From Collinsella aerofaciens ATCC 25986 (lineage in GTDB: Bacteria > Actinomycetota > Coriobacteriia > Coriobacteriales > Coriobacteriaceae): a stretch of DNA of 64,000 bases. Positions within the stretch are counted from its first letter, which is position 1; the number at the start of each line of letters is the position of its first letter. A program made the translations under genes and the position numbers. The notes beneath the pieces were generated by a model. It had not been told where the DNA came from. It worked only from the letters and a program-made list of their open reading frames with translations, and searched no databases. The DNA lies in contig NZ_CP048433.1 of the NCBI RefSeq assembly GCF_010509075.1, positions 2,170,001 to 2,234,000 of the forward strand, given 5' to 3'. Below, one piece after another: positions 24,834 to 57,938 of the stretch.

Positions 24834-24898
24834 AAACCATCACAACATTCGATGAAAATTTCGATTTTGACGAAAAGCGTCGAATGTTGTGATGGTTT
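24834..24898. repeat. 65-bp palindromic element, copy D
   Basis: AAACCATCACAACATTCGA (24834-24852) and its perfect complement (24880-24898) flank the centre TGAAAATTTCGATTTTGACG. The centre runs in the same orientation as copy C and opposite to copies A and B. Confidence 0.9.
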
Positions 24899-24970
24899 TC
24901 GTTTCGGGCGGGATGGTTTTCGTTTCGGGCGGGATGGTTTTCGTTTCGGGCGAGACGGTTTTCGCTATGG
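24891..24970 (+). repeat. 21-bp tandem repeat, three exact-length units and a fourth degraded
   Basis: Units start at 24891, 24912 and 24933 and read GATGGTTTTCGTTTCGGGCG followed by G or A. A degenerate fourth unit follows. The first unit begins inside the right arm of palindrome D, so the array seems to have grown out of that arm. The rest of 24970-25080 has no gene or clear motif. Confidence 0.85.
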
Positions 24971-25080
24971 ACGGTGCGGTTTCGCTGCAGAACCGCCGGC
25001 CCGCCGCTTGCCAGCCCGCCGCCCTCGTTACGTTTTCGCTGCATTTGGGTAAAGCACCTGCTCCAAGCGGCGTTGCCTTG

Positions 25081-37808: not shown

Positions 37809-38172
37809 GGGGGCGACTGGTTTCGACACGATAGCTCTGAGAGAGGAAGCAAGCCGAGGTCTCCTCGCCTCGTTAAACAGGGGTACCGTCAAATTGAATT
37901 GACAACAACTCTTCTTTTGAGCCTATGGCTCTCGCTGCTTAGTTTATAGCGGCGCGTCAACCCGGTGATTTCCCCGACACCGGTGCGACGTCATTTTAGG
38001 GGAATGCTCCTGCGCACGTAATCGGTATGGCGCAGGCTAAGACCGAACCGGTTAGGACGCCGCGAGCGTGTCGCTGCGCGCAAAGCGTCCGAGACAAAAC
38101 CAGCGACTGAGCTTGGAGATGCCAATCAGGGGGCTTTCGTGGACCGGAGTTCGATTCTCCGCGCCTCCACCA
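37809..38172 (+). ncRNA. ssrA: Transfer-messenger RNA (tmRNA)
   Basis: The 5' end GGGGGCGACTGGTTTCGACA and the 3' end with T-arm GGAGTTCGATTCTCC and CGCCTCCACCA are typical of one-piece tmRNA. They pair to form the tRNA-like acceptor stem, and CCA is encoded. The tag frame ends at 37901-37942 with DNNSSFEPMALAA followed by TAG, matching the usual ALAA ending that targets proteins to ClpXP. The resume codon is not certain because TGA stands shortly before it in frame. It rescues stalled ribosomes together with SmpB, which is not in this window. Confidence 0.93.
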
Positions 38173-38180
38173 TAAGTAAC

Positions 38181-38214
38181 AGGCAGGTAGATACTCATAT
38201 CTACCTGCCTTTTT
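38181..38214 (+). terminator. Terminator of tmRNA
   Basis: AGGCAGGTAGATA and TATCTACCTGCCT pair perfectly around CTCA and are followed by TTTTT, nine bases after CCA. Confidence 0.9.
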
Positions 38215-38228
38215 ATTTATTGTCCGTA

Positions 38229-38700
38229 CCGCGGAGAATCGAACTCTATGCAGGGCGCGGGCGTAAAGAAAACGCGTAAGCGTTTTTAGCCCGCGGGCGA
38301 GGACGCCGACAGGCGGCCGAAGCCGGTGCGGATTTGCGAAGCAAATACGCGGATTCTCCGTGCAATGCCCCAGCCCAGAACAGATGCGATGTTTATCGAA
38401 TCTCAGCCGGCCATGCCCCGCACCAACGGAACCCCGTACCGCGGAGAATCGAACTCTGTGCAGGGCGCGGGCGTAAAGAAAACGCGTAAGCGTTTTTAGC
38501 CCGCGGGCGAGGACGCCGGCAGGCGGCCGAAGCCGGTGCGGATTTGCGAAGCAAATACGCGGATTCTCCGCGCAAAGCCTCAGCCAGATATAGATGAGAT
38601 GCCGACCGGGCGTCATGCCCCGGTTTCAACCCATCAACGGATCCCCCCCCCACCCGCGGAGAATCGAACTCTGTGCAGGGCGCGGGCGTAAAGAAAACGC
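38229..38700 (+). repeat. 210-bp repeats at the tmRNA 3' side, 2.3 copies
   Basis: Units begin at 38229, 38439 and 38654 with CCGCGGAGAATCGAACTC, the reverse complement of the tmRNA T-arm and acceptor side. Each full unit then has a hairpin AAAACGC-GTAA-GCGTTTTT, and ends with GGATTCTCCGCGC (38561-38573; GGATTCTCCGTGC at 38351-38363), a direct copy of tmRNA sequence just before its 3' end. The third copy is cut at about 38700. No protein gene is supported here. Open frames on the minus strand are repeat shadows. Confidence 0.85.
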
Positions 38701-38716
38701 TACGGCAACGCAGACC

Positions 38717-38920
38717 GGGACACGCTTTCCCGATGGCAGCCCAGGCGGAAAGCGCGTCCCGGAATCCGCGCTCAGACTGGGACGTAGTTTCCGGATGACA
38801 CATCAAGCGGAAAGCGCATCCCGGAATCTAAGCTCGAAATGGGATTCATTTTCCTGATGACGGGCTCAGCGGAAAATGCGACCCGGAATTTGCTCTGAGA
38901 ACGGGACACGCTTTCCCGCC
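38717..38920 (+). repeat. 62-bp tandem array with a hairpin in each unit
   Basis: GGGACACG-like starts occur at 38717, 38779, 38841 and 38903, exactly 62 bases apart. In each of the three full units the 14-base GGGACnCGCTTTCC pairs with GGAAAGCGnGTCCC about 20 bases later, followed by GGAAT. Some stem positions change on both sides together (CGC/GCG in unit 1, CAT/ATG in unit 3). Confidence 0.85.
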
Positions 38921-39012
38921 GACCGCTCCGCCCTCCTCAACTCCAAAAACTGCGCGCTCGCCATCCCAAAACTGGGTAGAAGAAAGCCAAAACGCAATCG
39001 CAGGAGGTCAAC

Positions 39013-49135: not shown

Positions 49136-50500
49136 CTAGTTCTTCAGCGAGTTCAGCGGTGCCGGGAAGCGTCCACCACGGTGGGCAAGCACGGTGCCGG
49201 CGTTGGGGTTCACCGGCATGATGGGCGCACGGCCAAACAGGCCACCGTACTCGACGCAGTCGCCCACGCCCTTGCCGATGGCAGGAATCACGCGGACGGC
49301 CGTGGTCTTGTTGTTGATGACGCCGATGGCCATCTCGTCGGCGATGATGCCGGCGATGGTCTCGACCGGGGTGTCGCCGGGGATGGCGATCATGTCCAGG
49401 CCGACGGAGCACACGCAGGTCATGGCCTCGAGCTTCTCGAGCGAAAGCGCACCGGCCTCGACGGCGGCGATCATGCCGGCGTCCTCGGACACGGGAATGA
49501 AAGCGCCCGAGAGACCGCCCACGCTGGAGCTGGCCATGACGCCGCCCTTCTTGACGGCATCGTTGAGCATGGCGAGCGCGCAGGTCGTGCCGGGGCCACC
49601 GCAGGTGCCCACGCCGATGATCTCGAGGATGCGGGCAACGGAGTCGCCAATGGCAGGCGTAGGTGCCAACGACAGGTCGACAATGCCCTTCTCGACACCC
49701 AGACGATGGGCGGCCTCGCGGCTCATGAGCTCGCCGGCGCGGGTGATCTTAAAGGCGGTCTGCTTGATCTTCTCGGCAACCTCCATCATCGAGGCGGAAT
49801 CGGGCAGCGTCTCCAGGGCTGCGGCCATAACGCCGGGACCCGAGACGCCTACGTTGATGACGGCGTCGGCCTCGCCACCGCCGTGGACGGCGCCCGCCAT
49901 AAACGGGGAGTCCTCGACCATGTTGGCAAAGCAGACAAACTTGGAAGCGCCAACGGAATCCTGGTCGGCCGTGAGTTTAGCGGCATCGATGATGGTCTGG
50001 GCGGCCATAAGCACGGCATCCATGTTGATACCGGCGCGCAGGCTGGCGACGTTGACGCTGGAGCAGACGCGGCTCGTGGTGGCGAGCGCCTGGGGGATGG
50101 ACTGGATGACGCGGCGGTCGGCGTCGCCGATGCCCTTTTGGACGAGCGCGGAGAAGCCGCCCAGGTAGTCGATGCCGAGCGTCTCGGCCGCGCGGTCGAG
50201 GGCATGCGCGATGGGGGTGAGGTCCTCATCCTTGCAGCACGCGGCAATCTGCGCCACCGGGGTGACGGAAACGCGCTTGTTGACGATGGGGATACCGTAC
50301 TCGCGCTCGAGGTTCTCGGCGGTCTCGACCAGATGCTCAGCCGTGTGCGTCACGTGGTCGTAGATTTTCGTGCACATGCGGTCGAGGTTCTCGTCGCCGC
50401 AACCCATGAGCGAAACACCCATGGTGATGGTCCTGATGTCGAGGTTCTGTTCCTCAACCATGCCGCGGGTTTCCGCGATTTCTGCGGGCGTGATCGCCAT
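49136..50500 (-). CDS. UPF0210 (DUF711) family PFL-like protein
   Basis: This protein of 454 residues starts at ATG 50500 behind GGAGCGCAAGG; an upstream in-frame extension to 50557 lacks a binding site. The family resembles pyruvate formate-lyase in fold, with characteristic [51 protein letters not shown] and [16 protein letters not shown]. Function is unknown in the family. It usually follows an ACT-domain partner (UPF0237), which is absent here. Length is typical. Confidence 0.92.
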
Positions 50501-57407: not shown

Positions 57408-57439
57408 TTTGCGAAGGACGCTTTGAGGTCCGTTTTGCC

Positions 57440-57861
57440 GCCGAAACGCCCGCCACCGCGAGGGTAACGGGCTTCTCAGATTCTGTGGTGCCCCCAGCGG
57501 GATGTCCGCGTGCGGCTGGCGCCGCCCGCTTTCGCTGCGTCGCTTCGCTCCTTGCGTGCTGCGCTGGAAAACGCTTCGCGTTTCCTCAGCTCCGCACCCT
57601 GTCGGGTTCGAATCCCGGCGCATGGGTAGCAAAAAGCCCGCCACCGAATTGGTAACGGGCTCCTCAGATTCTGTGGTGCCCCCAGCGGGATGTCCGCGTG
57701 CGGCTGGCGCCGCCCGCTTCCGCTGCGTCGCTTCGCTCCTTGCGTGCTGCGCTGGAAAACGCTTCGCGTTTCCTCAGCTCCGCACCCTGTCGGGTTCGAA
57801 TCCCGGCATTTCGGTAGCAAAAAGCCCGCTACCGCGAGGGTAACGGGCTCTTCAATTCAAA
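57440..57861 (-). repeat. 188-bp repeats downstream of tRNA-Glu
   Basis: On the minus strand each unit has a terminator-like hairpin (AGCCCGTTACC / GGTAGCGGGCTTTTTG; 57817-57848, 57629-57660, and a degraded copy at 57445-57472). Then comes an inverted T-arm (RC of GTCGGGTTCGAATCCCGGC at 57789-57807 and 57601-57619), a hairpin AAACGC-GAA-GCGTTT, and a direct copy of the tRNA 3' end ATCCCGCTGGGGGCACCA (57674-57691 and 57486-57503). Starts are exactly 188 bases apart (57486, 57674, 57862). No protein gene is supported. Open frames here are repeat shadows. Confidence 0.85.
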
Positions 57862-57938
57862 TGGTGCCCCCAGCGGGATTCGAACCCGCGATATCCACCT
57901 TGAAAGGGTGGCGTCCTTGGCCGCTAGACGATGGGGAC
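57862..57938 (-). tRNA. tRNA-Glu (anticodon TTC)
   Basis: Read on the minus strand, the gene begins GTCCCCATCGTCTAGCGG, and its anticodon arm is CCACC-CTTTCAA-GGTGG with anticodon TTC. The T-arm is GCGGGTTCGAATCCCGC, and the end GGGGGCACCA includes an encoded CCA. Acceptor stem bases GTCCCCA and TGGGGGC pair. The 3' end is followed by a terminator hairpin with U-run. Confidence 0.96.

Follow-up and report, generated by a model that had tools for sequence, protein, structure and literature searches.

Tandem units that follow tRNA-Glu and tmRNA in the window (the whole 64,000-nt stretch of the Collinsella aerofaciens ATCC 25986 genome analysed here) belong to a family of tRNA-linked repeats (TLRs), which is classed as such because it shows the two hallmarks of that class, placement and 3′ identity, together with a model match. 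A unit is laid out as follows: the 3′ end of an RNA gene is followed by about 50 bp, often with a terminator, then by an inverted copy of the T-arm of the gene and a core of hairpins, after which the stretch of the gene between T-loop and CCA is repeated in direct orientation. We tentatively read the units, with a probability of about 0.45, as non-autonomous mini-elements of the TLR class that are specific for the 3′ ends of RNA genes, an RNA module being a close rival.

Results

Two arrays behind RNA genes in the window

On the minus strand, the CCA end of tRNA-Glu is followed in turn by a terminator, CGGGATTCGAACCCG, a core, ATCCCGCTGGGGGCACCA, a copy of the terminator, and a second unit (Table 1). 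CGGGATTCGAACCCG is the reverse complement of the tRNA-Glu T-arm, the core holds an AAACGC-GAA-GCGTTT hairpin (P3), and ATCCCGCTGGGGGCACCA is an 18-nt direct copy of the tRNA-Glu 3′ end. TRF reports a period of 188 bp with 2.3 copies at 57444–57879, in agreement with the period given in a preliminary description of this DNA. Behind tmRNA, two units whose starts lie 210 bp apart consist of CGCGGAGAATCGAACTC (the inverted T-arm), AAACGCGTAAGCGTTT, and then a direct copy, and a third unit is truncated. The direct copies of tmRNA are short, 9 and 12 nt, and carry neither CCA nor terminator; the terminator of tmRNA is present once, outside the repeat. The tRNA-Glu and tmRNA cores represent two types, with a loop hairpin common to both.

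The preliminary description had proposed the same order of parts in both arrays, which stands for the inverted T-arm, the hairpin core, the direct copy and the 210-bp period of tmRNA, but not for the tmRNA terminator. Its direct copy of the gene 3′ end is present as described at tRNA-Glu, but only in the short form without CCA at tmRNA. Its observation of different spacers sharing one small hairpin corresponds to the two core types, and the units, for which it reported no integrase gene, are too short to encode one.

Table 1. Coordinates of the tmRNA and tRNA-Glu arrays (window numbering)
Feature	Position	Strand	Basis
tmRNA, host RNA gene of the second array	37809..38172	+	ARAGORN; Rfam
tmRNA terminator region, single copy; end approximate	38173..38221	+	sequence
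tmRNA unit 1, inverted T-arm CGCGGAGAATCGAACTC	38230..38246	+	sequence comparison
tmRNA unit 1, core	38247..38351	+	R1 match 38229–38362, 140.8 bits
tmRNA unit 1, short direct copy GATTCTCCG	38352..38360	+	sequence comparison
tmRNA unit 2, inverted T-arm	38440..38456	+	sequence comparison
tmRNA unit 2, core	38457..38561	+	R1 match 38439–38572, 142.1 bits
tmRNA unit 2, direct copy GATTCTCCGCGC	38562..38573	+	sequence comparison
tmRNA unit 3, truncated left end	38654..38700	+	98% identity to unit 1
tRNA-Glu(ttc), host RNA gene	57862..57938	-	ARAGORN; Rfam tRNA
Glu unit 1, gene-proximal spacer: terminator-like hairpin and T run	57806..57861	-	sequence
Glu unit 1, inverted T-arm CGGGATTCGAACCCG	57791..57805	-	reverse complement of tRNA-Glu T-arm
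Glu unit 1, core, hairpins P2–P5 (AAACGC-GAA-GCGTTT in P3)	57692..57790	-	R1 match 57684–57809
Glu unit 1, direct copy of tRNA-Glu 3′ end ATCCCGCTGGGGGCACCA	57674..57691	-	sequence comparison
Glu unit 2, spacer copy with terminator	57618..57673	-	sequence
Glu unit 2, inverted T-arm	57603..57617	-	sequence comparison
Glu unit 2, core	57504..57602	-	R1 match 57496–57621
Glu unit 2, direct copy of tRNA-Glu 3′ end	57486..57503	-	sequence comparison
Glu array end: third terminator copy, decayed; far end approximate	57431..57485	-	TRF, sequence

The window holds other repeats as well. Degenerate repeats of ~62 bp (GCGGAAAGCGCGTCCCGGAATCC...) occupy 38700–38930, after the tmRNA array; a similar stretch stands behind the tRNA-Phe unit (L049), and the two possibly represent another dispersed repeat of the genome. 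A 21-bp tandem repeat in 3.5 copies is located at 24891–24982. A weak match of covariance model R1 on the minus strand at 49418–49542 (18.4 bits, E 0.0065) is probably due to chance.

Units across the Collinsella genome

Thirteen of the 58 RNA genes of this genome (tRNA and tmRNA, ARAGORN on RNA-gene flanks) carry a unit, and chance is therefore excluded as the cause of the repeats in the window. The unit-bearing genes are Arg-acg (three genes), Glu-ttc, Gly-ccc, Leu-caa, Leu-cag, Leu-taa, Lys-ttt, Phe, Ser-gct, Val-tac and tmRNA. The Leu-caa unit was assigned by its core and direct copy, its inverted copy being poor. Behind Gln-ttg, the left end of a unit alone remains, and several arrays finish in truncated units. 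R1 gives 17 matches genome-wide at E ≤ 0.001, and also 17 at E ≤ 0.05 in the smaller search of RNA-gene flanks and a prophage end (one antisense shadow excluded), the two sets agreeing in number.

One match, L053, was considered as a unit away from any RNA gene and rejected, a 3′ fragment of tRNA-Lys(ctt) being located upstream. ORFs with Bro-N and endolysin-like domains lie near this unit. The locus looks like a case in which a prophage parted an older unit from its tRNA-Lys(ctt) gene, because the intact gene, adjoined by an integrase-like ORF (identified by eye), lies ~38 kb away. The apparent prophage, known from its two ends (L053 and L031), spans about 815000–854000 of G000 C1, between tRNA-Lys(ctt) and its 3′ fragment.

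Placement and gene specificity in Coriobacteriia

R1 matches 40 of 43 genomes of the genus and 85 of 296 genomes of the class, in 33 of 124 genera; on such large genome sets, stricter filters lose weak matches. We examined 109 matches from 81 loci, comprising the class and genus searches and the flanks of this genome and of a close species (G001); these loci are the better-scoring ones rather than a random sample. An RNA gene or a tRNA 3′ fragment lies upstream of 108 of the 109, which is the placement expected of TLRs. Specifically, 106 have a same-strand RNA gene upstream, 86 of them within 80 bp and 20 at 81–450 bp in arrays, two (L053 and L090/L142) follow a tRNA 3′ fragment with prophage-type genes alongside, and the remaining match is an antisense shadow. 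A Pfam phage-integrase gene is located near the L090/L142 unit, within a prophage-type insertion, and an integrase-like ORF was recognised by eye at L031; neither is unit-borne. A terminator-like hairpin with a T run, called by a simple folding rule, is present in 60 of 86 distinct gene-unit spacers and absent in 26; by eye, a terminator also precedes the unit at E. coli proK and lysQ.

The host genes of the examined units comprise 26 gene kinds, and each examined unit has an inverted T-arm and a direct copy that derive from its own host. The direct copy matches its own gene over 18.2 nt on average, compared with 5.7 nt for other genes, and the own gene is the best match in 95 of 106 units. 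This mean, like the 18 nt of the Glu units, agrees with the 18–19-bp 3′ identity that marks TLRs, which the tmRNA units of the window do not reach. The inverted copy matches its own gene over 13.9 nt and other genes over 8.4 nt; the own gene ranks above every other in only 42 of the 106, because T-arms are alike. Where the host has a T-loop other than TTCGAAT, the exact reverse complement of that loop is present in 47 of 52 units and the common loop in none, while hosts with the consensus loop have the consensus in 50 of 53 units (one gene had no scorable loop).

The preliminary description had thus correctly proposed a single family behind structured RNA genes, with a T-arm adapted to each host gene. 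Its suggested search of relatives found units with an RNA gene upstream nearly throughout and the T-arm part present across the class; copies lying mostly away from RNA genes, which it had named as evidence to the contrary, were not what was found.

Fold and compensatory change

In the predicted fold, a helix between the inverted T-arm and the direct copy (P1) closes a structure with four hairpins (P2–P5) inside. P2 joins the last bases of the inverted T-arm to a short segment that follows them, and P3 to P5 are further hairpins. The direct copy begins at C56 or R57 in 67 of 92 scored units, and since this start coincides with the inner end of P1, the sharp boundary in the T-loop may reflect pairing and not a crossover point.

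RNAalifold on a mixed alignment of type A and type B units gave little structure, and the two types were therefore aligned apart. Among the nine type B units of this genome, 13 pairs are changed on both sides, a number reached by no shuffle, and four of the five measures of the covariation test lie above all 500 shuffles, the fifth, further pair types, not doing so (199/500). Across 108 distinct units of the class, in an alignment (A3) that was fitted to the structure of the model and thus leans towards it, 45 of 46 pairs show changes on both sides and 90.9% of cells are paired. Doubly changed cells number 977, compared with 260 in shuffles and at most 207 in slid controls, and none of 500 shuffles reaches that number. 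Furthermore, the core stems (helices 3–10), which are templated by no gene copy, also show compensatory changes.

Triloops close 133 of 191 unit hairpins with at least six Watson-Crick pairs, 80 of them being C(GNA)G, compared with 14 of 51 hairpins in control stretches. GNA triloops are unusually stable in DNA, and the excess is a hint of single-stranded DNA, but no more than a hint because GNRA tetraloops occur in units too (19 of 35 tetraloops). The sense strand seems to be the folding strand, as RNA or as single-stranded DNA, because G.U pairs outnumber A.C pairs (179 versus 67, a good part of the excess coming from two columns). The excess of G.U suits RNA at least as well as DNA.

Kinship with the tRNA-linked repeats of E. 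coli

PMC8144298 calls the family tRNA-linked repeats, with credit to Egan and Landy (1978) and Rudd (1999), and counts 22 TLRs at ten loci in E. coli. It portrays them as dispersed, related and tandem copies directly behind tRNA and rRNA genes, on the same strand, with a 3′ end identical to the last 18–19 bp of the upstream gene. Until the rrA/B/F RNAs behind 5S genes were presented in that paper, TLRs were, by its account, without known function. The words 'inverted' and 'mobile' are absent from its main text. We found no description of TLRs outside Gammaproteobacteria in the open-access literature, a scope that omits most subscription papers.

The anatomy of the E. coli TLR/RtT repeats, a likeness that the preliminary description had missed, is the same as that of the Collinsella units. 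The 178-bp repeats behind tyrT and tyrV of E. coli K-12 correspond to Rfam family RtT (RF00391), and a tyr unit comprises, in order, an inverted GGGGAAGGAT, a direct T-arm half AAGGTTCGA, hairpins with GCA and GAA loops, and AATCCTTCCCCCACCACCA. A model built from Coriobacteriia only (R2) ranks the four E. coli tyr units first, with E-values of 7.6e-5 to 1e-3 and the next match at 0.17, these values being rough, with filters off and 2.6 kb searched. The proK unit has a Pro-specific inverted T-arm and an R2 match at E 7e-5, while lysQ gives a weak R2 match (E 0.044) that ranks below an antisense match at 0.013. The rrnB repeat gave no R2 match and has no inverted copy of the 5S end, and in the short lys repeats the inverted T-arm is a stub only. 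A search of this Collinsella genome with the RF00391 model gave no match, because the core sequence differs. The tyr unit was matched in 4695 of 5426 E. coli genomes.

The E. coli TLRs and the units described here thus have in common the same-strand placement behind RNA genes, the 3′-end copy and the tandem arrangement of related units, and the tyr and proK TLRs also hold the inverted T-arm and GNA-loop hairpins. In contrast to E. coli, this Collinsella genome has units at 13 of 58 RNA genes including tmRNA, with a fuller inverted T-arm and another core sequence, and the rrnB and short lys TLRs, unlike the Collinsella units, lack a full inverted copy.

Two E. coli loci show further detail. In the lys operon of K-12 C3026 (L335), four tRNA-Lys genes have the short TLR form with a stub of the inverted T-arm, and the last tRNA-Lys has the full form, behind a terminator. 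In strain CKJ_1000_3.1 (L329), the second proK unit is truncated and runs on into sequence that we take to be REP-like.

Units in other phyla and sequence collections

A pattern scan of named genomes gave at least 119 stretches, all of which were classified. Among the matches listed, 80 titled stretches hold 84, of which 52 follow an RNA gene, 33 of these having a direct copy that is 13 nt or longer; a further 21 lie inside an antisense tRNA and are due to chance, and 11 have no gene found. Among the matches listed for the other 39 stretches, 41 in number, 23 follow an RNA gene, 15 of them with such a copy, while 8 are antisense and 10 have no gene found. Seventeen of the 33 direct-copy units among the matches listed belong, by record title, to Bacillota or to actinobacteria not labelled Coriobacteriia; because most such records are metagenome-assembled genomes, a misplaced contig is possible in single cases. 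R2 matches 14 of 14 such Bacillota and actinobacterial genomes, picked for having a pattern match, with 1–7 matches each. At 30 R2 loci in these genomes, an RNA gene is located upstream in 25; three more have a tRNA 3′ end that is masked, at the edge of a contig or part of a fragment, and two have neither. R2 also matches 17 of 396 sampled genomes of the host's phylum, two of them outside the class: G471, with the unit anatomy behind two tRNA-Ser genes, and G463, with no tRNA in the locus.

Phages and plasmids were considered as vectors and rejected, the tmRNA core having no match in 50,697 phage records and matching one of 72,556 plasmid records, over 41 bp in a Collinsella record. Four viral contigs with the exact hairpin pattern were examined and are not units. 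The E. coli tyr unit has one match filed under phages, which is a Salmonella contig with the unit behind tRNA-Pro, and matches 27 plasmid records; the one inspected is 5.4 Mb long and holds units behind tyrosine tRNA genes next to purU. In searches of 10 sources at E ≤ 0.5, no Rfam family fitted units outside E. coli, bar a sub-threshold overlap of BASRCI153 in L219 (E 0.0018, 30.8 bits versus a cut-off of 137).

Presence, absence and core similarity

Unit presence differs between this genome and G001. Units at Gly-tcc and Ser-cga are present only in G001 (that at Ser-cga without a CCA copy), the Leu-cag unit is present in this genome and absent in G001, and the Gly-gcc site is filled in G001 and holds a remnant in this genome. 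At the filled Gly-tcc site, the right host flank is preserved and a diverged terminator copy stands on the left. This difference would arise if a unit had inserted together with a gene-end copy of its own, and equally if the other genome had lost its unit by deletion between direct repeats; the Collinsella cases of presence and absence in general could be deletions too. In the congeneric genome G038, which has no R1 matches, none of 20 sampled RNA genes carries a unit.

Behind tyrV, E. coli K-12 has three units, and among the other strains read, two have one, one has six and two have none. Between tyrT and tyrV, four E. coli strains have an exact empty site of 33–34 bp in place of the 175-bp unit of K-12. 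Since this position is occupied by a homologous unit in a Klebsiella record, the empty E. coli sites are probably losses, by deletion through the direct repeat. The preliminary description had suggested mini-elements that insert at RNA gene 3′ ends; the family and its placement are upheld, and insertion may, but need not, account for the differences in presence, the empty E. coli sites looking like deletions.

Core identity was compared among 106 units, the first 27 and last 11 bases of each match being excluded. Within one family, units of different genomes are 0.739 identical at the same gene kind (108 pairs) and 0.631 at different genes (1376 pairs); between families, the values are 0.574 (133 pairs) and 0.553 (3555 pairs). 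Units behind different RNA genes of the same genome are 0.669 identical (366 pairs). These values suggest that within a family units go with their gene, and that over longer times they come to resemble the other units of their own genome more. Because units at different genes of one genome have more similar cores than units at one gene kind in different families, we infer that units spread or are homogenised; both would give likeness within a genome.

Discussion

We favour the element reading because units are often placed beyond terminators, at 26 gene kinds and with a patchy distribution, and because folding would create a T-arm replica. Under this reading, units would spread between the RNA genes of a lineage as non-autonomous elements, the direct copy would leave the gene with a complete 3′ end, much as happens with integrative elements that attach at tRNA 3′ ends, and copy-number change and loss would follow from ordinary recombination between direct repeats. 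On a folded single strand, the inverted T-arm and the direct copy would rebuild a double-stranded T-arm replica, in which the hairpin core sits at the T-loop, and a recombinase provided in trans could take this replica for the tRNA gene. Among the loci read, no unit-borne gene or recombinase and no autonomous copy with a recombinase was found, and movement was not seen.

Two known systems offer partial parallels. Integrative elements at tRNA 3′ ends belong to the tyrosine-recombinase class, with identity from the T-loop to the 3′ end; like the units, they have a T-loop-to-CCA identity block at both junctions, a restored gene end and a preserved right flank, but the units are ~130–210 bp long, geneless, equipped with an inverted T-arm and present at many genes. 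Integron attC and CTX phage attP are folded single-strand recombination sites in which, as proposed for the units, the folded strand rebuilds a double-stranded target copy. No integron integrase or cassettes were seen with the units, and the likeness to attC is one of fold only.

The close rival is an RNA module, for which we see a substantial, though smaller, chance: a read-through transcript would fold and be cut by the 3′ processing of the gene, serving as a small RNA or as a processing or termination buffer, and selection would keep P1 matched. The strong compensatory change, the excess of G.U over A.C and the location of all examined units on the sense strand of their gene, antisense shadow aside, accord with this. 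So do the E. coli rrA/B/F TLR RNAs behind 5S genes, which PMC8144298 describes as transcribed, processed, bound by Hfq and CsrA in vitro and conserved in at least 31 Enterobacteriales species, its authors explaining the 3′ repeat as an RNase E site. RtT RNAs, likewise, are reported near tRNA genes in Pasteurellaceae, with Northern signals for RtT homologues in Actinobacillus (PMC4986893). However, a terminator-like hairpin stands ahead of the unit in most distinct spacers, unit presence varies between close species, and an RNA role alone leaves the spread to so many gene kinds unexplained; moreover, PMC8144298 states that a phenotype described early for a tyrT TLR has been retracted, and its CsrA prediction gives the 19 tRNA-operon TLRs scores <0.01.

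That the units are passive repeats, functionless ancient insertions whose copies are kept gene-like by template switching or gene conversion while slippage and recombination alter copy number, we consider improbable. Such events could act over the ~55 and ~170 bp that separate the inverted and direct copies from the gene, truncated units end several arrays, and unit number behind tyrV in the E. coli strains read ranges from none to six; but no gene copy could template the compensatory changes in the core stems, and the same fold recurs across phyla. The LTR-retroelement reading, in which the inverted T-arm would be a primer-binding site and the direct repeats would resemble long terminal repeats, is largely refuted. 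An inverted tRNA-end copy does follow the first direct repeat, over 22–23 nt in L097 and L145, but L097 is the only one of 106 units in which this copy extends to a complement of CCA and six acceptor bases, and the tRNA 3′ end would therefore stay unpaired. The boldest form of the element reading, TLRs as cross-phylum, self-retargeting parasitic mini-elements moved in trans by whichever recombinase uses the host gene, we regard as rather unlikely. In this form, a unit would copy the T-arm of its host gene in both orientations, its folded single strand thereby mimicking the attachment site of that gene; if it is true, RNA genes serve not just phages and islands but also ~180-bp elements as attachment sites, in at least three phyla.

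The 178-bp tyrT repeat of 1978 is now placed in a class that spans Actinomycetota, Bacillota and Proteobacteria and whose members have one fold in common, keep to a strict rule of placement and carry an inverted T-arm specific to their gene. An old puzzle thereby becomes a set of testable questions: what moves or homogenises the units, why the T-arm is matched to the gene, and whether units act as DNA or as RNA. Genomic islands are called from tRNA-end duplications, and these, like annotated RtT sRNAs, may in fact be TLR units.
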